Shown here piece by piece: positions 3,597 to 15,214 of a stretch of DNA of 64,000 bases (within the stretch, counting starts at the first letter, position 1; every line of letters begins with the position of its first letter). This stretch comes from Methylococcales bacterium. GTDB lineage: Bacteria > Pseudomonadota > Gammaproteobacteria > Methylococcales > Methylomonadaceae. The position numbers and the translations under genes were made by a program. Below the pieces are notes generated by a model. The model saw only the letters and a list, made by a program, of their open reading frames with translations, had not been told where the DNA came from and searched no databases. Location: assembly GCA_030654015.1 (NCBI GenBank), contig JAURYI010000092.1, positions 1-64,000 on the forward strand, written 5' to 3'.

Positions 3597-4160
3597 TTAG
3601 CTCGTTATAACCATGGCAATAAATACGACAACGCCAGTTACCGTAGAATACAGCGTCATTTTGCGGTATTTGGGCAGTTGCCACGCCATAATAAATCCCG
3701 TCACTAATAGCATGAATAAAGATGTTCCCAATACAACGGCATATATTTTAAACGCAGGCGCACCGTTCGCAGTGTGTAATTCCAGTAAGCGTTTAGACCA
3801 ATCAGCTTTTCGTACGGTCAGCTTAGCTTCGGTTGTCTGAGTGGATTCCAGCGTCACTCTTAACGCCGCACCGCGCCAGTTTAATTCGATGAGCTTATCG
3901 GTACTTTCGTTGCTTGCCTCCCCTGTTGGCGGCGAGAGTTGTAACTTCTGCAACTCCTGCGTCACAAAATCGGTCAATGCAGCATCCTCTTTTGGCAATG
4001 GCGCAGTTAATGGCAGCGTATACACCTGTGTGTCATAACCGCCTTCAATACCCAGCGTATACAGTGTTCCTGTGACCAGAAACATCAGCGCAATCGGAAA
4101 AATAAAAGTCGCAAGTATTAAATGTACCTGCATGAAAAAGAGACGATTAATTTTAATCAT
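3597..4160 (-). CDS. small PepSY-associated membrane protein
   Basis: A 187-residue protein with three predicted membrane segments: about residues 10-35, where the helix begins QVHLILATFIFPIALMFLV, then about 137-158 and 167-186. About 100 soluble residues between the first two should face the periplasm. The architecture matches short PepSY-TM proteins often linked to iron reduction or metal homeostasis. No catalytic residues or haem-binding His pairs stand out. It is divergent from the efflux-adaptor gene at 4312, with about 150 bp between them that could hold both promoters. Function is not assigned. Confidence 0.7.
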   Translation of the reverse strand: MIKINRLFFMQVHLILATFIFPIALMFLVTGTLYTLGIEGGYDTQVYTLPLTAPLPKEDAALTDFVTQELQKLQLSPPTGEASNESTDKLIELNWRGAALRVTLESTQTTEAKLTVRKADWSKRLLELHTANGAPAFKIYAVVLGTSLFMLLVTGFIMAWQLPKYRKMTLYSTVTGVVVFIAMVITS

Positions 4161-4311
4161 GAATAAACCTGTTGGTGGTTGAAGTGATTTGGGTGCGAGT
4201 TTGCTATATTACGCAGTTAGCGCGTTATACATCACACCAGTCTACGATGTTAAAGACGATTTGCCAATATCCACTAACCCTAACAGAACATTGCGTAATA
4301 TTCACACCCAC

Positions 4312-5319
4312 ATGAATTTCCTATTAAAAAACGCTATCTTACTTTCTGCTATTTTTGTTATCACTACTGCCATAGCGGACGATGATGACGACAAACAGCC
4401 CAGCCAAGAAGCCCAACCTGTCGCAGGTCAATCAGGCATTAACTTGGATGCCAAAGCCCAGCAACATTCAGGGCTGGAAACCATAAAACTGCAACCTGCC
4501 ACTTATCACGCCGAATTTACCGCGTATGGCAAAGTGTTAGCCATGCAACCGTTAATCGAATTACGCCACCGCTATTTAGTTGCGTTGACTGAACGCAACG
4601 CAGCTCATGCGAAATTTAACCAAGCTGAACAAAGCGTACATCGTCAGCAAGCTCTGTATCAAGAAGGCATCAGTGCAAAACGCCATTTGCAAGAACAGCA
4701 AGCGCAATGGCAAATCGACAAAGCACAACTGGAAGCCACGCATTTTCAAGATCAAACCCTTAAAGAGCAAGCTCAGCTGACATGGGGTAACACCTTGGCA
4801 GAATGGGCGTTATCCAGCAATAGCAAACAGTTCAATGCCTTGTTATCAGGGCAGCAAAAACTCTTACAAATCACCTTGCCCAGTAATCAACAATTAGCCG
4901 ATGAACTCAAAACCATTGTAATTGCCGCCTCTGGCAATCGCAGCAAAGCCCAAACCGCGCAACTCATTTCATCCGCGCCACAAACCGATGCCAGCAGCCA
5001 AGGCAACAGTTATTTTTTCCAAACCGCCGCAAAAAATATCAGCATCGGTATGGCAGTCACCGCATGGTTACCTGAACAGGATAAACAATTATCGGGTGTG
5101 ATGATGCCAAAATCAGCGTTATTGTGGTCTATGGATCAAGCGTTTGTTTATATCAAAACAGGCGACACCTTCAGCCGCCGAACTATCACGCATTATGCAA
5201 TCAGTAATGACGGTTATTTTGTCAGTGAAGACCTGAAACCCGATGAAGAACTGGTGGTTACAGGTGCGCAGATGTTGTTATCCGAAGAAATGCGCGGACA
5301 GATTCCTGATGAGGATTGA
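4312..5319 (+). CDS. periplasmic efflux adaptor (HlyD/RND membrane-fusion type), unpaired
   Basis: Read from the ATG at 4312 the protein is 335 residues with a clear signal sequence (residues 1-22, ending TTAIA) followed by an Asp-rich stretch. The middle has the long alpha-helical hairpin of adaptor proteins (Q/A/E/L-rich, about residues 90-170). The C-terminal third has the usual small beta domains ending near GAQMLLSEE. An in-frame reading back to 4189 adds 41 residues without signal character and is rejected. No permease is adjacent. It converges on the outer-membrane factor at 5331, which belongs to another operon. The family is fairly sure; the partner and substrate are unknown. Confidence 0.75.
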   Translation: MNFLLKNAILLSAIFVITTAIADDDDDKQPSQEAQPVAGQSGINLDAKAQQHSGLETIKLQPATYHAEFTAYGKVLAMQPLIELRHRYLVALTERNAAHAKFNQAEQSVHRQQALYQEGISAKRHLQEQQAQWQIDKAQLEATHFQDQTLKEQAQLTWGNTLAEWALSSNSKQFNALLSGQQKLLQITLPSNQQLADELKTIVIAASGNRSKAQTAQLISSAPQTDASSQGNSYFFQTAAKNISIGMAVTAWLPEQDKQLSGVMMPKSALLWSMDQAFVYIKTGDTFSRRTITHYAISNDGYFVSEDLKPDEELVVTGAQMLLSEEMRGQIPDED

Positions 5320-5330
5320 TGATTGTGGCA

Positions 5331-6785
5331 TCAAAACGTCTGCCACCCGCCACCCAACACCTTATACAGCAACACTACATCCGCCGAGGTTTTCGCGCTA
5401 CTGCTGACTAACGCGCTTTGTGCCTGATAGAGTGCTTGTTGGCTTTGCAGTACATTAATAAAATTGCTTAAGCCTTTTTCATAACGCATCGTGGCTAATT
5501 GTACGGCTTGCTGATTGGCGGTGACGGCTTGTTGTAGGGATTGGTGTTTTTGCTGTTCTTTACGGTAAGAAACCAGCGCGTCTTCGACTTCTTTAAACGC
5601 GGTCAAGACGGTTTTTTGATAACCAATCAGACTTTGCTGGTACTGGGCTTCTTTGCTTTTGATATTAGCGTTGAGTTTGCCCCAGTTAAACAGCGGTGCA
5701 GTCAATGTCGCACCGACTGACCACGATTTGCCGATAGGCGTAAAGTCAGTGATACGGGTATTTTGCAAGCCGATAAACTCAGCTAAATTGAATTTTGGAT
5801 ACAACTCAGATTCAGCAATCCCAATTTGCGCATTGGCGGCAGCGAGTTGACGCTCTGCATAGCGAATATCAGGGCGGCGTTGTAATAGCTCAGACGGCAA
5901 GTCGGGCATCACCGTCGCTTTCACCATTGGGATACTCGCCACAGGTGCTAACCGTGCCGCTAATGCGTCAGGTTGTTTAGCCAATAATAAACTCAGCGCA
6001 TGAATAGCTTGTTGCACCGCAGTTTCATAGCTGGGCAATTGCGCTTCGGTGGTCGCCAGTTGCGCTTGCGCTTGCGACACTTCCATCATATCCGCCAAGC
6101 CCGCTTGCTGGCGGACGTTTAATAAATTCACCGTATCTTGTTGATTGCGCAGATTGGCTTCGGTAATCACGATTAGCTGTTGATTGCCGCGCAGTTCGAT
6201 GTAATTACGCGCCACTTCGCCCAGTAAAGTCACCATGACATCGTGCCGATGTTCAATTTCACTGTCAATGGTGGCATCAGCGACTTCTATCGCCCGTTGC
6301 ACACCACCGAAAAAATCCAGTTCCCATTGGGCATCAACACCGAATTGCAATAAATTGATGATTTGACTACCAAAACCAAAACCGCCCGCTTGTGATGTGG
6401 ATGAGGTGGAGGCGGAAGAATTCAGGCGACGATTGATATTACTGTTACCCGATAAGCTGGGCAAACCAGAGGCAACTGTTACCGTGCGTTGCGCCCGTGC
6501 ATCTTTGATACGGTCTAGGGTTTGTTTTAAATCCAGATTGGTATTGATAGCATCGACTATCAGTTGATTCAGTATCGGATCATTAAAATTCTGCCACCAT
6601 TTTTCCAGTGCCATAGGATGGGCTGACGCAGGAAGCCCATCGTTCGCGATTGATGGGCTTCGTACCTCAGCCCATCCTATAGAACTCCATTGTTTAGGTG
6701 TGGCAACTTCTGGTTTTTGATAATCAGACCCGACAACTACGCAGCCTGTCAATAAGACCGAAAAAACCAGCGCGTAACGCCTCAT
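5331..6785 (-). CDS. outer-membrane efflux lipoprotein (NodT/OprM family), last gene of the arsM operon
   Basis: TolC-like outer-membrane channel of 484 residues. The signal peptide ends in the lipobox LLTGC (Cys15), so the mature protein should be lipid-anchored. Two OEP repeats follow, each rich in long helices. Conserved family pieces include PDLPSELLQRRPDIRYAE and GATLTAPLFNWGKLNANIKS. Its start overlaps the stop of the adaptor gene by four bases (ATGA), so the two are translationally coupled. Residues about 36-58 are encoded by a 68-bp palindromic repeat that normal family members lack. The channel should act with the adaptor encoded just upstream. Confidence 0.88.
   Translation of the reverse strand: MRRYALVFSVLLTGCVVVGSDYQKPEVATPKQWSSIGWAEVRSPSIANDGLPASAHPMALEKWWQNFNDPILNQLIVDAINTNLDLKQTLDRIKDARAQRTVTVASGLPSLSGNSNINRRLNSSASTSSTSQAGGFGFGSQIINLLQFGVDAQWELDFFGGVQRAIEVADATIDSEIEHRHDVMVTLLGEVARNYIELRGNQQLIVITEANLRNQQDTVNLLNVRQQAGLADMMEVSQAQAQLATTEAQLPSYETAVQQAIHALSLLLAKQPDALAARLAPVASIPMVKATVMPDLPSELLQRRPDIRYAERQLAAANAQIGIAESELYPKFNLAEFIGLQNTRITDFTPIGKSWSVGATLTAPLFNWGKLNANIKSKEAQYQQSLIGYQKTVLTAFKEVEDALVSYRKEQQKHQSLQQAVTANQQAVQLATMRYEKGLSNFINVLQSQQALYQAQSALVSSSAKTSADVVLLYKVLGGGWQTF
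6613..6680. repeat. 68-bp palindromic repeat inside a coding sequence
   Basis: Perfect 14-base terminal inverted repeats (ATAGGATGGGCTGA at 6613-6626 and its complement at 6667-6680) enclose a second inverted pair (AAGCCCATC 6633-6641, GATGGGCTT 6652-6660). The whole element is read through in frame by the outer-membrane factor gene and encodes about residues 36-58, near the mature N-terminus. Confidence 0.75.
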
Positions 6786-7726
6786 AAACCTTTACCTGTA
6801 GCGGCTTGGGTTTCAATAAACACATCCATTTGCTGACCGATATAGAACGGTAATTGTTTACGGTCAAAACTGTACAGAGCTTGTAAAACGCGGGTATCGA
6901 CGCGCTCGGTGCTGTCACCTGTCAGGGATTTTTTCGGTATCACAAACGGTTCTAAGTAGGCTAATTCCAGTTCAACTTTAAACGCCCGATTGCCGCGTAA
7001 ATACGCCACGGCTTTGGTGTGTTTATCAAATCGCCACGCATCATTCTCATCAATATCGACACGCACATGAAGCTGGTCGATATTACCGACCAACATCAGC
7101 GGAATGGTTAATGCGCCCGCTTGCGCAAATTCCCCTGCCCTGATATTGACCTGTAAGACTTCACCATCAATCGGCGAACGCACGATTAAGCGTTCCAAAG
7201 TTGTTTTACTATTGGCAATACTGGCTTGTGCTTGCTGCACGACGGCTTTGGCACTGTCTAATTTAGCTTGCGCAATAGCGACCGCGTTATGTCGGCGCAG
7301 TAATTCTTCCCGGCTGATAGCGCGTTTATCGGTCACGGATTCGGCTAAATTTTCCAGTGTTTGGGTATCAATCAGTGCGGCTTTGGCTTCGTTGACACTG
7401 GCACTGGCTTTGGCTAAATCGGCTTCTTTGATGGCTAAATCAGCGCGGGTATCGCGTTCATCCAAATAAAACAGCGGCGACCCTTCCTTAATCGCATCCC
7501 CCACTTTAACAGCGACGCGGGTCACAATACGAGGCAATGGCGTACCAATGGCGATATTCTGGCTTTTGGCTTCAATAATGCCTGCACCCGCAATAAATTC
7601 TTTAAACGGTGAAAAAGACGGTTCGGCGACCGCTTGGGCAATCGGCATCGGCTGATTACTGCTGACCACGGTATAGCCTGCGAAAAATAAGCCGACAAGT
7701 GCCAGTAAAGGCAGTAGATATTTCAT
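6782..7726 (-). CDS. HlyD-family membrane-fusion adaptor of the arsM operon
   Basis: A 314-residue adaptor when read from the ATG at 7726, preceded by AAGGTC. It has one N-terminal membrane anchor (KYLLPLLALVGLFFAGYTV), a lipoyl-like half-motif (VKVGDAIKEGSPLFYLDE), a long alpha-helical hairpin (about residues 90-165), the second lipoyl half (IRAGEFAQAG) and beta-barrel regions. Longer readings to 7747 run into the arsM stop and are rejected. The gene begins eight bases after arsM ends and overlaps the outer-membrane factor start, so it is the middle of a synthesis-export operon. Its inner-membrane partner is not obvious; the first gene of the operon is the only candidate nearby. Confidence 0.87.
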   Translation of the reverse strand: MKYLLPLLALVGLFFAGYTVVSSNQPMPIAQAVAEPSFSPFKEFIAGAGIIEAKSQNIAIGTPLPRIVTRVAVKVGDAIKEGSPLFYLDERDTRADLAIKEADLAKASASVNEAKAALIDTQTLENLAESVTDKRAISREELLRRHNAVAIAQAKLDSAKAVVQQAQASIANSKTTLERLIVRSPIDGEVLQVNIRAGEFAQAGALTIPLMLVGNIDQLHVRVDIDENDAWRFDKHTKAVAYLRGNRAFKVELELAYLEPFVIPKKSLTGDSTERVDTRVLQALYSFDRKQLPFYIGQQMDVFIETQAATGKGL

Positions 7727-7734
7727 AGTTGACC

Positions 7735-8850
7735 TTAACAGCAACAAGGCGGGTTATCACTGGAATGCGCCGCACTTTTGGTTTCTGCGACAGGTCTTAA
7801 CGTCCCTGATGGATGACACCATGTGTTTGCAACTTGTTCTTGGGCTGGAGCAATGCCGATAAATTGCTCGTTATACACGTCGCTGGTGAGTAGCTGATAA
7901 CTGCGTTCACACACTGCCATGCGTTGCCCGCGACAAAAGACATGACCTTCATCATCATAGACTTTGCTGAATGAACCTTTATAAATCACCGCGTGTCCTT
8001 TATCCAAACAGGGAACGGGTTGCGGTTTAGTGGCGGTAATCGTTACCGCACGGAACTCAATACCTTCAACGACTTGCCACGGTTGCGCGTCCCATTTGTC
8101 CAGAGTAACCGCGACAAAACCCGCTTCGACAAAGGCTTGTAAAAAATCATGCTCCAGCAACGCGCCAGAAATACACCCGCTCCACAAATGCGCGTCGTCT
8201 TTCAGGTGTTGCGGCACAGGTTCATCACTGACAATATCCGAAATAGCCACCCGTCCACCTGCTTTGACAACACGGAAAATTTCTTGGATGAGTTGTTTTT
8301 TATCGCTGTCATGGACGAGATTCAACACGCAATTAGACACTACCAAATCAACGCTATTATCAGCAATCAGCGGCTGGGTTTTGCGTTGTTGTTCTTGCCA
8401 TGCGCGTAACGCCAACACGTCTTCGGCGCAACGCACGGGATTTTCTGCCAGATGTTGATTCATTGCCGTCAAATCTAAAGCGAGGTCTTGAATCTGTCCT
8501 TTCACAAAATGCACACGGTCTGAACCAATTTTTTCTGCCATTTCTGGCTGATATTTTCGCGCCAGTGTCAACATATCATCATTCATATCCACGCCGATGA
8601 CGCTGCCTGAATCGCCGACTAATTGCGCTGCCATGTAACAGATTTTGCCCGAACCAGAGCCTAAATCCAGCATCACATCGCCCTTGCGCACATAACGGGA
8701 CGGGTCGCCACAACCATAATCTTTGTCGATAATTTCCTGTGGCAAAATGGCTAATAATTCGCGGTCATAATCGACGGGACAACATAAATCGGCTTGCACC
8801 TGTTCCGCGCCTTGTGAATACCGTGCTAATACGCCTGTTTCTACGCTCAT
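7735..8850 (-). CDS. arsM: arsenite S-adenosylmethionine methyltransferase (ArsM family, ArsS-linked type)
   Basis: Transfers methyl groups from SAM to trivalent arsenic in the cytoplasm. The 371-residue protein starts at the ATG at 8850, with GAGG six bases upstream. The class I SAM fold shows DLGSGSGK followed by GVDMNDDM. Cysteines at the positions that bind As(III) in characterised ArsM are all present: LCCPVD (Cys23/24), YGCGDP (Cys47), SNCVLN and SGCISG. A C-terminal extension beyond the methyltransferase fold ends in three consecutive Cys residues. It follows arsS by ten bases, and in known bacteria this pair makes the arsenosugar precursor dimethylarsinoyl-deoxyadenosine. No arsR, arsC or arsB is present. 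Confidence in the family is high; the product in this organism is inferred. Confidence 0.88.
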   Translation of the reverse strand: MSVETGVLARYSQGAEQVQADLCCPVDYDRELLAILPQEIIDKDYGCGDPSRYVRKGDVMLDLGSGSGKICYMAAQLVGDSGSVIGVDMNDDMLTLARKYQPEMAEKIGSDRVHFVKGQIQDLALDLTAMNQHLAENPVRCAEDVLALRAWQEQQRKTQPLIADNSVDLVVSNCVLNLVHDSDKKQLIQEIFRVVKAGGRVAISDIVSDEPVPQHLKDDAHLWSGCISGALLEHDFLQAFVEAGFVAVTLDKWDAQPWQVVEGIEFRAVTITATKPQPVPCLDKGHAVIYKGSFSKVYDDEGHVFCRGQRMAVCERSYQLLTSDVYNEQFIGIAPAQEQVANTWCHPSGTLRPVAETKSAAHSSDNPPCCC

Positions 8851-8860
8851 GTTAAACCTC

Positions 8861-9817
8861 TTATTCGTTGGTGATGCTACCCGTACAACTACTGCCCTGC
8901 CCTGCGGTGCAGCCGTAACAATGTTGCTGGGTGGCAATGGATTGACCGAGTAATTCGGATACGTCTGTGATGTGTCGCGGTTGTGTCGCGCCTAACGGCA
9001 GTTTGAGCATTTGATTAAAATCACAATCATACACAAAGCCCTGCCAATCGACGCTTAAGGTGGTTCTGCACATGACACTGGCTAATGCGTCTGGATTAAA
9101 ATTGGTTTTCAACAGCCTCATATAATCGTCAAACTGCCCTGTGCTTAACAACACACTGCCAAAGCGTTGGATGGGTAAGTTAGTGAGCGCGTAAAGCTGA
9201 TTGAAAACAATACCATACTGTTCATATAAATGTTGCTTATAGGCTTGTTCAAGTGCGTGTTGCGGTGGCGGTAAACTCGCGCCTTGCGGATTAAACACCA
9301 AATTCAAAATGAGCGAGCTATTCGCCTGACCGTAACCCAACGCATTTAATTGCTGTAAGGCAATAATACTTTTATTAAACGTGCCTTTGCCGCGCTGTTT
9401 ATCGACATTATCCTGTAAATAACACGGCAAGGACGCGACAATGTCCACTTGTTGCGCGGCTAAAAATTCGGCTAAGTCTGAATAACCGTCTTCTAATAAA
9501 ATCACCAAGTTGCAACGGTCTATCACTTTGACGTTACGAAGCCGCGCTTGTTCTACCAGATAGCGAAACTGCGGATTCATTTCAGGTGCGCCGCCTGTTA
9601 AATCCAGCGTGTGGATGGCGTGTGTATCAATGAACGCCAATACCTCATCAACGGTTTTTTTGTCCATCAATTCTGTGCGTTTCGGTCCTGCATTAACGTG
9701 ACAATGCGTGCAACTCAGGTTACATAAATAACCCAAGTTGACCTGTAACACGCTCAGCGCGTTGCGCGTAATGCGCGGAAAATCACTGGCTTTTAAATAC
9801 GGGGCGGAATCACGCAT
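8861..9817 (-). CDS. arsS: arsenosugar biosynthesis radical SAM protein ArsS
   Basis: Radical SAM enzyme of 318 residues. The [4Fe-4S]-SAM motif CxxxCxxC is at Cys32, Cys36 and Cys39 within LCNLSCTHCHVNAGP. The TGGAPEMNP segment that binds SAM follows near residue 75. The C-terminal DUF3641-like domain has DCDFNQML and a second Cys cluster, CYGCTAGQGSSC (Cys300, 303 and 311), typical of the family and probably an auxiliary cluster site. Known ArsS joins the 5'-deoxyadenosyl group to dimethylated arsenic made by ArsM. The gene lies seven bases after the fused membrane protein and ten before arsM, indicating one transcript. Confidence 0.88.
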   Translation of the reverse strand: MRDSAPYLKASDFPRITRNALSVLQVNLGYLCNLSCTHCHVNAGPKRTELMDKKTVDEVLAFIDTHAIHTLDLTGGAPEMNPQFRYLVEQARLRNVKVIDRCNLVILLEDGYSDLAEFLAAQQVDIVASLPCYLQDNVDKQRGKGTFNKSIIALQQLNALGYGQANSSLILNLVFNPQGASLPPPQHALEQAYKQHLYEQYGIVFNQLYALTNLPIQRFGSVLLSTGQFDDYMRLLKTNFNPDALASVMCRTTLSVDWQGFVYDCDFNQMLKLPLGATQPRHITDVSELLGQSIATQQHCYGCTAGQGSSCTGSITNE

Positions 9818-9824
9818 GGCTGAT

Positions 9825-12044
9825 TTATTTCCATATCTTCACGATATTGGTGTAATCATCCGTCCATGGGTGCATATCAAAATATAAGGGCATAGTTTGC
9901 CAAGTACCCAATAAACTCAAGGTGAGCGGCGTGAGGGTTTCGGGTTGTCTTGCTATCACCACCCAGTCAGTATCAACCACCAGCGGCATAGCTTCTGGGG
10001 CTTTAAATTCTTGGATTAGCACGGCAAAATGGGCTTGTTCAGCATGAATAGACAGCACTTTTTTCAGAGCCAAATGGCGGTTGGTAATGTGAAATGCCAG
10101 TATGCCGTTGGGTTTTAGCTTTTTGAAATACAGTTCCATTGCTTCTTTGGTGATGAGATGCGTCGGCACCGCATCGGAGCTGAACGCATCCATCATTAAT
10201 AAATCAAAATGCTGGTCGGGTTCTTTTTCTAATGCTAAGCGAGCATCACCAACGCGCATAGTGGCATTGGGCAGACAACGGCTGAGGTAAGTAAAATAAT
10301 CGGTATTTTTAGCAATATCAATGACTAACGGATCAATTTCATACAATGTCCAGTGTTGATTGGGTTTGGCATAACAGGCTAAGGCCCCCGCACCTAAACC
10401 GACCACACCGATGTTCCAATTCGCACTAGCCGTATCAAAGGTTTTGAATAACTGCCCCATCGGACCGGGTTGGCTGTAATAGGTCAGTGGAATTTTTGCC
10501 AGTGGTTCAGGCAAGCGTTGTGCGCCGTGTTTAGTCGTACCATGAAACAGTTCATGATACATTTCAGGCTGGTTATTCTCATCGGTCAAGACGCTTTCAC
10601 GCACTGCCATGACACCAAAAAAACTACGCTCTTGGTAAAGCGTATGTGACGATAATCCGTGTAAACTCAAGGCTAAAAACATGATTACGCCGATGGTCAG
10701 CGCGTAACTCAGGGTTTGCTTTCTTAGAAAATAAACCAATACGCTGAGGGCGATTAAACTGAGCGCGATATTGTCGAAATATTGCAGTAAGTCATTAACA
10801 CTGGCATACAAAATTAAGCCGATGCCCAGTAATACTACAGGCACAATGAATTGCCATTGCAGGCGCGTGGTCACCAACCACGGACGCAGCAATAACGCGG
10901 CAACTATCATCAATGGGTATTCATAAATGCCGTCAAACACAAACGGTGCGACGAAGGTATTAAACATTCCGCCTAACATCCCCGCAAACGACATAATCAG
11001 GTAGAAACTGGTTAAATGTTGCGTCGGCGGTCTGCCTTTGGCAAGTTCACCATGACACACCATGATGGCAAAGAAAAATGCCAAAACGTGCAGGATGAGA
11101 TACACCCAATACGGCAAATCAGCTGGATTAACAAAGGCGTAGGCAATAAATGGAATTAATACCAAAGGTTGCAGCTTCACCATCCACGGGTGCAGAGTGT
11201 CGTTCCATTGCGAAAATACGATAATAAACGACAGCAAATAAACGGTCAGCGGAATAATCCACAACAGCGGCACAGAGGCAATATCGGTGCTGATAAAATT
11301 GGTTAAGCCCAATAATAAGCTGGAGGGAACAAACGCTAACGCCAGCCAGTGCAGTTTTGTTGCCCACGTTAAATCATCTGCGACAGGTGTTTCTATGATA
11401 AGCGCGTTATCAGGTTGTTGGCGTTTCCATAACGACAACGCACAGGTAGCAATCAATACACATAACAGCACATAACCGATACTCCAATAGCTTTGCTGAT
11501 TGGCTAAGCCGATAGTTGGCTCTAATAAAAACGGATAACTGAGTAAAGCGAGCAGACTGCCTGTGTTACTGGCAGCATAAAGAAAATACGGATCATCACT
11601 GCTTTCATGCCCGATATTTGAAAACCATTTTTGTATCAATGGCGCAGTAGTAGATAGCACAAAAAACGGCAAGCCTATTGACAAAAATAATGTCCAGCAT
11701 AGCCACAATGTCGGATTGCTGTCAGTGGGCGGAATAGTATTGTCAGGCAAGGCAACGGGCAACGCTAATAGGCTGATTAAAATAACCGCGAGGTGAATTA
11801 AAATTTGCGGGCGATTTTGATAGCGAGTAGACAATGCGTGCGCATAAAGATAACCCAAAAATAAAATGCTTTGATAAAACACCATGCAGGTATTCCATAC
11901 CGCAGGTGAACCACCTAATAACGGTAATAAAATTTTACCGAACAGCGGTTGTAACACGAACATCAAGGACGCACTGACAAATAATGTGCCGGCAAATAAG
12001 ACGATGGTGGAAAGGTGGCGATTGTTTTTTAATTCTTGGCTCAT
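9825..12044 (-). CDS. membrane protein fused to a spermidine-synthase-like domain; first gene of the arsM operon
   Basis: A 739-residue two-part protein. Residues 1 to about 480 contain a dozen or more hydrophobic helices, resembling the transporter-like half of the 'fused MFS/spermidine synthase' family. Residues about 520-725 form a Rossmann-type aminopropyltransferase/methyltransferase fold. Its nucleotide motif GLGAGALACYA replaces the GGGDG of true spermidine synthase, the ribose-binding acid is in LYEIDP, and the family's catalytic-region Asp is in LLMMDAFSSD. The protein is therefore likely to bind SAM or a relative, but spermidine synthesis is doubtful. It starts the five-gene ars operon, seven bases ahead of arsS. 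It could be the inner-membrane part of the exporter, a transferase acting on the arsenical, or both. Confidence 0.8.
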   Translation of the reverse strand: MSQELKNNRHLSTIVLFAGTLFVSASLMFVLQPLFGKILLPLLGGSPAVWNTCMVFYQSILFLGYLYAHALSTRYQNRPQILIHLAVILISLLALPVALPDNTIPPTDSNPTLWLCWTLFLSIGLPFFVLSTTAPLIQKWFSNIGHESSDDPYFLYAASNTGSLLALLSYPFLLEPTIGLANQQSYWSIGYVLLCVLIATCALSLWKRQQPDNALIIETPVADDLTWATKLHWLALAFVPSSLLLGLTNFISTDIASVPLLWIIPLTVYLLSFIIVFSQWNDTLHPWMVKLQPLVLIPFIAYAFVNPADLPYWVYLILHVLAFFFAIMVCHGELAKGRPPTQHLTSFYLIMSFAGMLGGMFNTFVAPFVFDGIYEYPLMIVAALLLRPWLVTTRLQWQFIVPVVLLGIGLILYASVNDLLQYFDNIALSLIALSVLVYFLRKQTLSYALTIGVIMFLALSLHGLSSHTLYQERSFFGVMAVRESVLTDENNQPEMYHELFHGTTKHGAQRLPEPLAKIPLTYYSQPGPMGQLFKTFDTASANWNIGVVGLGAGALACYAKPNQHWTLYEIDPLVIDIAKNTDYFTYLSRCLPNATMRVGDARLALEKEPDQHFDLLMMDAFSSDAVPTHLITKEAMELYFKKLKPNGILAFHITNRHLALKKVLSIHAEQAHFAVLIQEFKAPEAMPLVVDTDWVVIARQPETLTPLTLSLLGTWQTMPLYFDMHPWTDDYTNIVKIWK

Positions 12045-12172
12045 TAGTTATCGCTTGGTTGGCTGATAGTTTTTAATGAGGCAATGATAAACCATTTGTG
12101 GCAACACGCGGTATTTTGAGTGCGGCGCGGCACAAAAGAAAGGGAGAGTAAGCGGTTATCTGTAGGAGGGTA

Positions 12173-12212
12173 TAAAAACAAACGGCAACTCACAGATGGG
12201 AGTTGCCGTTTG
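12173..12212 (-). terminator. rho-independent terminator of the cold-shock gene
   Basis: On the minus strand a 12-bp perfect stem (AAACGGCAACTC paired with GAGTTGCCGTTT; arms 12200-12211 and 12180-12191) is followed by a short U-run. It lies 11 bases after the csp stop codon. Confidence 0.85.
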
Positions 12213-12222
12213 AAGGTAGCAT

Positions 12223-12423
12223 TTAGATGAGTGTTACATCTTCTGCTTGTGGTCCTTTTTGGCCTTGAGTAACAGTAAACTGAACTTTTTGACCTTCGTC
12301 TAGCGATTTGAAGCCAGAGCTGTTGATGTTACGAAAATGAACGAAAACATCAGGGCCGCCTTCTTGTGAAATAAAACCGAAACCTTTTTCTGCGTTAAAC
12401 CATTTAACGATACCAGTAGTCAT
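12223..12423 (-). CDS. cold-shock domain protein (CspA family)
   Basis: A 66-residue single OB-fold RNA chaperone that melts mRNA structure, notably in the cold. Both RNA-binding motifs are intact: RNP1 (KGFGFI) and RNP2 (VFVHF). The N-terminus [16 protein letters not shown] is canonical. AGGA lies upstream of the ATG. A sigma70-type promoter about 180 bases upstream leaves a leader of roughly 150 nt, like the thermosensing leaders of cspA genes, and a strong terminator follows. The gene appears monocistronic. The paralogue letter cannot be assigned. Confidence 0.93.
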
Positions 12424-12578
12424 TGTGAAATCCTGTAAAAATAAGTAATTAATGCCTTTTGCAAGGCGGGTGTAGTGGCGCTGTAAAATTTAAAAACTTT
12501 ATGATAACAGGACGAGCAATCACAGAAAAACTTCGTAGAGATAAGCATAACGGTAGATCAATTTCAAGCTGGGTGCAT

Positions 12579-12606
12579 TGTATAGCCGTACCTTAAGTAA
12601 TGTCAA
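12579..12606 (-). promoter_or_regulatory. sigma70 promoter of the cold-shock gene with long 5' leader
   Basis: On the minus strand, TTGACA (12601-12606) is followed after 16 bases by TATACA (12579-12584). The start of transcription is expected near 12572, giving a leader of about 149 nt before the ATG at 12423. The remaining bases to 12730 upstream of the divergent gene show no other gene. Confidence 0.65.
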
Positions 12607-12730
12607 TCTTTATCCTTTTGCTACTTGGCATTAACAAGAGTCAAACTTCACGTTCAATAAAAATAGTTATACCCTGCATGACAAACAAATGTACATTTAT
12701 AAGCAGTGTCCCTTATTGAGTATCAATTAT

Positions 12731-15214
12731 ATGAAGCGTTTTAATCTGGCTTTGCGTCTATTGTGGCGTGATGGTCGCTCTGGCGAATTAACTATTCTGG
12801 TACTGGCGTTGCTGATTGCAGTCACCAGTTCAACCGCTATCGCGTTATTTTCCGACCGCCTGCAAAACACCATGACCACACAAGCGGCGGAGTTTTTGGC
12901 AGCGGATTTGGTTATTACCAGTCCGACAGAAATACCCGCCGCGTGGCAACAGCAAGCCGCACAACTGCAATTAAGTCAAGCACGCACTACGGAATTTTCC
13001 AGTGTATTAATGGAACATGAGGAAATATTGTTAGCCAGCATTAAATCAGTCAGTTCAAGCTATCCATTGCGCGGCTTTTTAAAAACGCAGGCAACGGAAG
13101 ACAGTGCAGAAATCGAACAGCGACAAGCTCCTGCAATCGGCACGGTGTGGGTGGAAAAACGGGTATTATCGGCATTAAAACTGCGCGTTGGCGAGTTATT
13201 GACCATTGGTGAAAAACCGTTGACGATTGCGCAAATTGTCACTTACGAACCCGATAAACGCGGCGATTTTTACAGCTTTTCACCGCGCGTGTTAATGAAC
13301 GAAGCGGATTTAGCCGCAACAGGAATTTTGCAAGCGGGCAGTCATGTGCATTATTTCTTTCAGTTCAGCGGTGCTGAACAAGCCTTAGCCAATTTTAAAA
13401 ACTGGAGCAAGCCGCAATTAAATCCATCGCAAAAACTGCTGGATATTCATCAAGACCGCCCTGAATTAGGCGGTGCGTTAGAAAAAGCGGAACGTTATTT
13501 GGGGCTATCCAGCATTATCGTCATTTTAATTGCAGGGGTAGCCATTGCAATGGCTACCCGCCGTTATACTAAACGCCATTTTAATGCGACCGCGTTGTTG
13601 CGTTGTCTGGGCTGTAAACAACGCGAAATAGTCTGGCTGTATACCAGTCAATTTATGATTTTAGGTGTGGTCGCCAGTAGTTTAGGTTGCTTATTAGGCT
13701 GGTTTGCGCAACAAGGTCTATTTTATTTATTGCGGGATTTATTACCCAAACAACTGGCACAGCCCAGCATCTCGGCGGTGTTGTTTGGTCTGGTGCTGGG
13801 ATTAGGCGTGTTACTGGGTTTCGCTCTGCCGCCATTATTACGACTTAAACAGGTATCACCCCTGCGGGTGTTGCGCCGCGAGTTAGAGCCATTACCCGCC
13901 AGCGGCTGGTTGGTTTACGGCTTGGCATTGACGATTATCACGCTGTTAATCGGACGTTATACGCAAGACTTTATCATGACATTCACGATTGTCGGCGTGG
14001 GCGTGGGCGTATTGTTAATACTTGGCTTGTTAATGAATGCTTCATTAGTGCTGATGGCGAAGTTATTGCCGTCCATGTCCTTAGTGTGGCGGTTTGCGTT
14101 GCAGGGCTTAGTCAGAAATAATCGCGCCACCATCAGTCAATTATTGGCATTCAGTATTACGCTGCTGGCGATGATGTTGAGTTTCAGTGTGCGCACGGAT
14201 TTAATTACAGACTGGCAAAAATCCATGCCGACTAACGCACCGAATCATTTCGCACTGAATATATTTCCTGAACAACAAGCCGATTTTCAGCAGGAACTCA
14301 CACAACAACACATCAGCGGCAGTCAGTTTTATCCTGTGGTACGCGGTCGCTTAGTCGCTATTAACAACACGCCCGTCCAACAGGTGGTCAGTAAAGATTC
14401 ACAAGGCGACAATGCCACGCATCGAGAACTCAGCTTGACGTGGACGGAAAAACTACCCGAAGACAATAAAATTATTGACGGCAGCTGGTGGACAGAAAAC
14501 CAAGCAGGACAAGTATCAGTTGAAGAAAAATTAGCGCAAAGTTTAAAAATCAAGCTGGGCGATGAACTGACTTTCACTATCGGCAGTCAGCAGGTAAAGT
14601 CCAGTGTAACCAGTATTCGCAAGCTGCAATGGAATACCATGAAGCCGAATTTTTATATGATTTTCTCACCGAACACGTTGAATAATTACCCGTATACTTT
14701 TATCACCAGTTTTTATTTATCCAGCGAACAAAAACCGTTGTTAAACGCGCTGGTAAAAAAATACTCCAGCGTCACCGTGTTGGAAGTGGATTTGATTTTG
14801 CGACAAATCAACACTATCTTGACGCAACTCACCGAGGCGATTAATTATCTGCTGTACTTTGCCTTACTGGCAGGATTTACCGTGTTATGGGCGGCGGTGT
14901 ATGCCAGTCTGGATAATCGCATTTATGAAGGTGCGTTAATGCGTACTCTGGGGACTGAGCGGCGATTCCTACGCACCACCCATTTTCTGGAATTCAGCGT
15001 ATTGGGTCTGATTGCAGGTTTATTTGCGGTACTGATGTCAGAAACGATTCGTTATGCCTTGTACGCACATATTATGCACATAGAATATTTCCCCAACCTT
15101 TATTTATGGGTAATCGTCCCCATATCAGCGGCATCATTAGTTGGCTTAACAGGCTACTGGGGACTTAGAGAAGTAGTGAATAAATCCCCACTGGGCGTTT
15201 TAAGAGAACTATAA
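12731..15214 (+). CDS. FtsX-like ABC permease (YbbP family)
   Basis: Membrane component of an ABC system of the COG3127/YbbP type, thought to act on envelope lipids or lipoproteins. The 827-residue protein has the usual layout: one N-terminal helix (GELTILVLALLIAVTSS), a large periplasmic MacB-like domain, a central block of membrane helices with the FtsX motif ATALLRCLGCKQREI (about 290-305), a second periplasmic domain (about 510-690) and a second FtsX block with EGALMRTLG. The ATG at 12731 is chosen over an upstream in-frame ATG at 12689 because it places the first helix normally. The ATPase (ybbA) that usually sits beside it is absent, so its partner must be encoded elsewhere. Confidence 0.85.
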   Translation: MKRFNLALRLLWRDGRSGELTILVLALLIAVTSSTAIALFSDRLQNTMTTQAAEFLAADLVITSPTEIPAAWQQQAAQLQLSQARTTEFSSVLMEHEEILLASIKSVSSSYPLRGFLKTQATEDSAEIEQRQAPAIGTVWVEKRVLSALKLRVGELLTIGEKPLTIAQIVTYEPDKRGDFYSFSPRVLMNEADLAATGILQAGSHVHYFFQFSGAEQALANFKNWSKPQLNPSQKLLDIHQDRPELGGALEKAERYLGLSSIIVILIAGVAIAMATRRYTKRHFNATALLRCLGCKQREIVWLYTSQFMILGVVASSLGCLLGWFAQQGLFYLLRDLLPKQLAQPSISAVLFGLVLGLGVLLGFALPPLLRLKQVSPLRVLRRELEPLPASGWLVYGLALTIITLLIGRYTQDFIMTFTIVGVGVGVLLILGLLMNASLVLMAKLLPSMSLVWRFALQGLVRNNRATISQLLAFSITLLAMMLSFSVRTDLITDWQKSMPTNAPNHFALNIFPEQQADFQQELTQQHISGSQFYPVVRGRLVAINNTPVQQVVSKDSQGDNATHRELSLTWTEKLPEDNKIIDGSWWTENQAGQVSVEEKLAQSLKIKLGDELTFTIGSQQVKSSVTSIRKLQWNTMKPNFYMIFSPNTLNNYPYTFITSFYLSSEQKPLLNALVKKYSSVTVLEVDLILRQINTILTQLTEAINYLLYFALLAGFTVLWAAVYASLDNRIYEGALMRTLGTERRFLRTTHFLEFSVLGLIAGLFAVLMSETIRYALYAHIMHIEYFPNLYLWVIVPISAASLVGLTGYWGLREVVNKSPLGVLREL

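Follow-up and report, generated by a model that had tools for sequence, protein, structure and literature searches.

An arsS-arsM pair joined to predicted ABC exporter genes in a Methylococcales bacterium

To our knowledge, the exit route of complex organoarsenicals from the cells that produce them is little understood. In Synechocystis, the initial steps of arsenosugar synthesis involve SsArsS together with SsArsM, and export of the product by ArsQ has been demonstrated for the arsinothricin operon arsQML of Burkholderia gladioli (PMC8552651). Here we analyse a window of 64,000 nucleotides from a Methylococcales bacterium (contig 136 of a 3.66 Mb genome in 141 contigs), in which arsS and arsM stand directly before the genes of a periplasmic adaptor and an outer-membrane channel. 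A link of ArsS or ArsM to a tripartite exporter was not found among the titles and abstract starts listed by searches of open-access PubMed Central. We consider it reasonably probable that this is a stand-alone second arsS-arsM pair of the genome, joined to the adaptor and channel genes of a conserved exporter of the ATP-binding cassette (ABC) type, similar to MacAB or DevBCA.

As in the Synechocystis pathway, both enzymes are encoded here, with an ArsS above the curated cut-off of its family and an ArsM with conserved cysteines, but the pair is separated from the GT2 and DUF2064 genes found with a second arsS-arsM on contig 94, and the ArsM of the locus scores below the cut-off of the arsenosugar model. 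Like arsQML, the locus combines a radical S-adenosylmethionine (SAM) enzyme with an ArsM and an export protein in a single operon, and the nearest ArsM model is that of arsinothricin ArsM, although under its cut-off. However, arsQML includes ArsL and the inner-membrane permease ArsQ (PMC8552651), whereas ArsS, an adaptor and an outer-membrane channel are found here, with a putative role in export. With MacAB-TolC and DevBCA the locus shares an adaptor nearest to MacA, the order permease-ATPase-adaptor-channel in relatives, a permease with FtsX and MacB_PCD domains, and matches to the DevA, DevB and DevC models; it differs from them in that these three cut-offs are not reached and in that the operon is split in two in the genus of the window. 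Finally, in contrast to a standard ars resistance operon, none of arsR, arsC, arsB and acr3 was detected when ten genes around the locus were searched with NCBIfam and Pfam. The absence of arsR, arsB and arsC reported in the initial annotation therefore holds for these ten genes, the 64-kb window not being wholly annotated, but the genome encodes Acr3 (463 bits) and two PF03960 (ArsC-family) proteins on other contigs; arsR was not searched genome-wide.

The enzymes and the predicted exporter half

Five minus-strand genes run from position 12044 to 5331, separated by gaps of 7, 10 and 8 bases and with a 4-base overlap of the last pair, according to open reading frame (ORF) calls, translations and ATG starts. 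This arrangement had been described correctly in the initial annotation, and the identities that it gave to the products (a membrane/spermidine-synthase-like fusion, ArsS, ArsM, an HlyD-type adaptor and a TolC-like channel) agree with the matches to NCBIfam, Pfam and solved structures described below.

The arsS gene (8861..9817, minus strand) encodes a radical SAM/DUF3641 protein of 318 aa that scores 465 bits against the curated TIGR04167 model (cut-off 300) and 186 bits against PF12345 (DUF3641), with the radical SAM motif CX3CX2C at residues 32-39 (C32, C36 and C39 in the translation). For arsM (7735..8850, minus strand), the mechanical ORF start was the TTG at 8937, which overlaps arsS, so that the ATG at 8850 was used, resulting in an arsenite methyltransferase of 371 aa. 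Its best NCBIfam model was that of arsinothricin ArsM (NF040538, 342 bits, under the cut-off of 500), and the arsenosugar ArsM model NF038099 gave 133 bits without reaching its cut-off of 400. The closest solved chain was the arsenic methyltransferase 4kw7, and because all three cysteine segments align with it, the cysteines which we take to be catalytic in algal ArsM (Cys72, 174 and 224) are conserved. Judged by sequence, both ArsS and ArsM are genuine.

The adaptor gene (6782..7726, minus strand) encodes an HlyD/MacA-type periplasmic adaptor of an ABC exporter, of 314 aa from the ATG at 7726, used instead of the mechanical TTG start at 7747. The protein is above the Pfam cut-offs of HlyD_3 and HlyD_D23 but does not reach the cut-off of any of the 21 listed NCBIfam models (RND_mfp 74/95, DevB 55/129), and its best solved match was MacA of MacAB-TolC (5nik). 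The last gene (5331..6785, minus strand) encodes a TolC-like outer-membrane factor of the NodT subfamily, of 484 aa, which passes the curated TIGR01845 cut-off (369 bits, cut-off 210) and gives 164 bits with OEP.

The partners of these two proteins were revealed by their relatives. Adaptor orthologues, accepted at E 1e-90 or better, were present in 36 of 101 genomes (own included), with identities of 59-88% outside the three window-type genomes, after which the values dropped to 52% and 33%; the next-best match within the own genome was just 24% identical. Twenty of the 33 adaptor loci outside the window-type genomes were read, 17 of them outside the genus and three within. Outside the genus, a DevA-like ATPase sequence lay directly upstream of the adaptor in all 17 loci, a DevC-like permease was present in 16 (the contig of the 17th ends inside devA) and a channel orthologue followed the adaptor in 15, while a gene for a TetR-type regulator was found upstream in eight (best model CecR, under its cut-off). 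Long antisense ORFs had masked devA or devC in three loci (L140, L141 and L143), where they were recovered by tblastn, and maps of the longest ORFs may likewise miss genes in the survey of exporters described below.

In the genus of the window, the adaptor and channel stand apart from the permease and ATPase, and the latter two were found together without an adaptor in all four genomes of the genus that were read (G000, the genome of the window, on contig 37, and G002, G006 and G007). The contig-37 permease of the own genome carries FtsX and MacB_PCD domains and lies next to an ABC ATPase, although the DevBCA cut-offs are not reached in this genome (DevB 55/129, DevA 230/296, DevC 68/290), nor by the orthologues at locus L136 (DevA 225, DevC 78). 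The adaptor and channel are thus predicted to be half of a MacAB/DevBCA-like ABC exporter, because of the ATPase and permease neighbours in relatives, the best solved match to MacA and the FtsX/MacB_PCD permease. A YbbP-like, FtsX-type permease gene that diverges from the locus on the plus strand (12689..15214; NF041854 559 bits, under the cut-off of 999; FtsX 63 bits) is not part of the operon, and was rejected as the inner-membrane component of the pump, given that the DevC-like orthologue sits on contig 37.

Association with arsenic genes

If the pump were a dedicated organoarsenical exporter, as proposed in the initial annotation, it should occur only together with the organoarsenical enzymes. 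ArsS, accepted at E 1e-50 or better, was present in 27 of the 36 genomes with the adaptor versus 54 of the 65 without it (Fisher P 0.43). The adaptor was kept without ArsS in nine genomes, eight of which are at least 97% complete, and linkage to arsS was seen in three of the 36. In the other 33 adaptor genomes, 20 read directly and 13 assessed by contig numbers and positions (four of these without ArsS), the adaptor and channel were unlinked to arsM and arsS, the very outcome that the initial annotation had named as refuting its proposal, although the ends of draft contigs could hide links, as in G042, where the adaptor and arsS are both near contig ends. No match to ArsS or ArsM at E 1e-15 was detected across the 20 loci read. 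Neither the co-occurrence nor the neighbourhood tests supported a dedicated pump, and since nine of 36 adaptor genomes lack ArsS and only three are linked, a dedicated arsenic pump is unlikely. From the interpretation first given to this locus, the enzymes and their tight packing with exporter genes stand, but not the adaptor and channel as a dedicated arsenic exporter.

The own genome has a second intact arsS-arsM pair on contig 94, within a larger cluster of arsenosugar type (L155, 15000-33000) with the order PHO4-type transporter, GT2, DUF2064, cyclase-like, MgtC-like, DUF3047, DUF547, VTT, oxidoreductase, ArsS, ArsM, HD domain and DoxX. We take GT2 and DUF2064 genes to mark arsenosugar clusters. 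This cluster showed no match to adaptor, channel or resistance-nodulation-division (RND) proteins with home-made profiles, and its ArsM is also under the NF038099 cut-off of 400 (138 bits). In quick trees without bootstrap, ArsS of the window lineage grouped with Methylovulum (support of 90 in the Shimodaira-Hasegawa-like approximate likelihood ratio test, SH-aLRT), apart from the ArsS of other genus-mates and from the contig-94 copy; the two ArsM copies were separate too, in a tree with no Methylovulum rows included. Two candidates for unusual ArsS forms were rejected. An internal TGA in the arsS of locus L019 (10001-10951) aligns with a tryptophan of the contig-94 copy and not with a cysteine, as selenocysteine would require, and corresponds to a nonsense change or an assembly error at a tryptophan codon; and a putative internal stop in the second ArsS of the window genome was the normal end of the gene.

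The distribution of the gene order was analysed in the ArsS loci of named genomes, namely the best 80 of 313 relatives, where most near loci were from Methylococcales. The search for the gene order proposed in the initial annotation returned arsS-arsM-adaptor-channel in two of these loci, L026 (ArsS 96% identical) and L002 (90%), both from close relatives of the window, with arsM-adaptor gaps of 8 and 3 bases, respectively, compared to 8 in the window. The window was compared with L026 and L002 in nine pairs covering the five genes (the channel against L002 alone), and the pairwise ratios of nonsynonymous to synonymous substitution rates (dN/dS) were 0.05-0.09. The L026 channel gene (12087-13532) carries an in-frame TGA at a tryptophan, either a nonsense change or an assembly error. 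More generally, arsS and arsM are often neighbours: a hand count placed arsM at most about 0.6 kb behind arsS in 31 of the 49 genomes where ArsM was matched. In relatives, arsS adjoins many different genes.

The first gene of the group (9825..12044, minus strand) encodes a 739-aa MFS_SpdSyn-type membrane protein fused to a spermidine-synthase-like domain (NF037959 64 bits, cut-off 40; no Pfam match). It was discarded as a member of the pathway, as a match is present in all 61 genomes of family f1 that were searched and is near arsS in three; among the 101 genomes, it is near arsS only in the three window-type genomes. It is more likely an adjacent gene than part of the pathway, although in three further genomes (L006, L020 and L029) such a gene is found, in other orientations, at a distance of 0.4-1.2 kb from arsS or arsM, which speaks against its being a mere neighbour. 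A second copy, 51% identical, was found about 5.6 kb from arsS in G049. In L002, 252 bases separate this gene from arsS, versus 7 in the window, and about 250 of them (4006-4259) have inverted ends and resemble a small mobile element.

Flanking genes and signals

Upstream of the first gene of the group lies a gene for a cold-shock protein of 66 aa (12223..12423, minus strand; PF00313 102 bits, cut-off 27), conserved in L026 and L002; this gene and the second arsS-arsM pair were outside the account of the initial annotation. A strong terminator-like hairpin of 13 pairs followed by a T-run (12179..12212, minus strand) stands between this gene and the operon; it is near-identical in L026 and altered in L002. 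Terminator-like sites in the region numbered 18 versus 10.1 in shuffles. A promoter-like site with 11 of 12 matches was detected by the cold-shock gene (12606-12577). Such sites in 4100-12800 were not above shuffles (15 vs. 15.9), and therefore no promoter is claimed for the operon. No RNA element matched Rfam at the gathering score in positions 1-22000 of the window.

At the other end, outside the operon, a convergent gene (4189..5319, plus strand) encodes a protein with a weakly RND-adaptor-like C-terminus and no Pfam match, and stops 11 bases from the channel gene; a PepSY-TM-like gene (3597-4160) adjoins it. Both are also found beside the operon in L002 and L026, and the convergent gene alone also in L124 of genome G007.

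Competing explanations and significance

According to the explanation that we favour, the genes would be transcribed together, ArsM would methylate arsenite and ArsS would add a 5'-deoxyadenosyl group to yield an arsenosugar precursor, while the adaptor and channel would assemble with the contig-37 permease and ATPase into an envelope-spanning pump. Co-expression of this pump with arsSM would enable the cell to export the arsenic product or would protect the cell against it. The ancestral substrate of the pump was probably non-arsenical, as genomes that lack ArsS also retain the pump. The junction of arsSM with the exporter genes is real but local, and secretion of an arsenic product is possible.

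Several points weigh against this explanation. The proposal that the genes would be transcribed as one unit is drawn from their spacing, and the proposal that the contig-37 permease and ATPase would serve this adaptor follows the gene order of other genera. In addition, broken but collinear arsS and arsM pieces are found directly before the adaptor in two genus-mates, G006 and G003, hinting at a linkage that is more than incidental, as do RND pump genes directly behind arsS in two other lineages.

The remnants in G006 and G003 (L125, upstream of 1455, and L126, upstream of 7582) comprise the start and radical SAM region of arsS and the start and end of arsM, reaching into the start of the adaptor. 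Most pieces match the window clade best, and one arsM piece of G003 is nearer to the intact ArsM of G006. In both genomes the adaptor and channel are retained with 79-89% identity, and other genes for ArsS and ArsM are present at different places. The flanks of the block differ, with purE upstream in G006 and G003 and the spermidine-synthase-like gene in the window. These collinear remnants indicate that the four-gene block is probably older than the split of the G003 and G006 species from the window clade; in those two genomes, the arsenic half was lost and the pump half kept. G007 has the convergent gene downstream of the channel in common with the window, but neither arsSM nor a detectable remnant was found at its adaptor-channel locus. 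The ArsS of G007 is identical to that of Crenothrix sp. D3, and the genus is referred to here as Crenothrix-type.

The position of exporters near arsS was surveyed in 181 ArsS loci, comprising the 80 named loci, 100 class-level loci and contig 94. The class-level loci were hand-picked, one per family first, among the matches listed, with 183 of 369 genomes matched. Home-made profiles for outer-membrane factors, HlyD-type adaptors and RND proteins were used, and single-component exporters were not counted; ten loci without a scorable ArsS frame, none of them with an exporter match, were left out, so that 171 were scored. Eight independent exporter systems were detected near arsS once close relatives were merged. 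Three of them, in the window clade, L064 and L224/L228, begin on the same strand no more than 60 bases after arsS or arsM, and the other five (L011, L049, L199, L223 and L235) do not. For comparison, 90 of 2373 other genes (3.8%) are placed in this way, giving a binomial P of 0.003 with the window clade and of 0.027 without it, the window clade being the starting point of the study; both values are rough, as the loci are related.

In L064 (2370-9159), a distant arsM (33% identity), DUF2064 and arsS are followed after 28 bases by channel, adaptor and RND permease genes, whereas in L224 (2842-7957) and L228 arsS is followed by adaptor and RND permease genes, 48 bases away in L224. These loci resemble the window in having same-strand exporter genes directly behind arsS, but their RND pumps have the inner-membrane part in place, ArsM is distant in L064 and the permease frame is broken in L228.

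The main alternative is a dedicated secretion of organoarsenicals, in which the pump would have been captured in this lineage to send the product of ArsM and ArsS (a nucleoside, an arsenosugar or an arsenolipid) out of the cell. The tight arsM-adaptor gaps in the window, L026 and L002, the age of the junction suggested by the G003 and G006 remnants and the three of eight exporter systems close behind arsS or arsM compared to the positional rate all favour it, and arsQML (PMC8552651) sets a precedent for organoarsenical genes that share an operon with a permease of their own. Nevertheless, we regard it as unlikely, with the pump half kept where arsSM decayed (L125 and L126), the adaptor kept in nine of 36 genomes where ArsS is absent, an arsenosugar-type cluster on contig 94 without adaptor, channel or RND match, and a permease and ATPase located outside the operon. 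Least probable is a fortuitous neighbourhood, in which arsS-arsM landed before an expressed exporter pair and was tolerated with no functional link: the variety of genes that arsS adjoins, the decay of arsSM beside a persisting pump half in two genus-mates, the low number of linked adaptor genomes and the G007 locus, with adaptor, channel and the shared downstream gene, agree with it, but the low dN/dS across the three genomes, the four-gene block, intact or decayed, within two different sets of flanking genes and the recurrence of exporters behind arsS elsewhere speak against it.

A stand-alone arsS-arsM pair joined to half of a conserved ABC exporter thus remains our preferred explanation. 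A broader and doubtful generalization is that ArsS-family synthesis repeatedly recruits trans-envelope pumps, with half of a DevBCA/MacAB-like ABC exporter recruited in the Crenothrix-type group and RND pumps recruited in two further lineages, for which the survey offers modest support. If true, some methanotroph-related bacteria would secrete an arsenic nucleoside, sugar or glycolipid rather than retain it and would be a microbial source of dissolved organoarsenicals. The order of arsS-arsM and exporter genes, together with its RND recurrence, connects arsenosugar-type synthesis with secretion in a testable way, and even without export the locus would illustrate how an operon was first split, then joined to different neighbours and finally decayed in part, with remnants that give the order of events.

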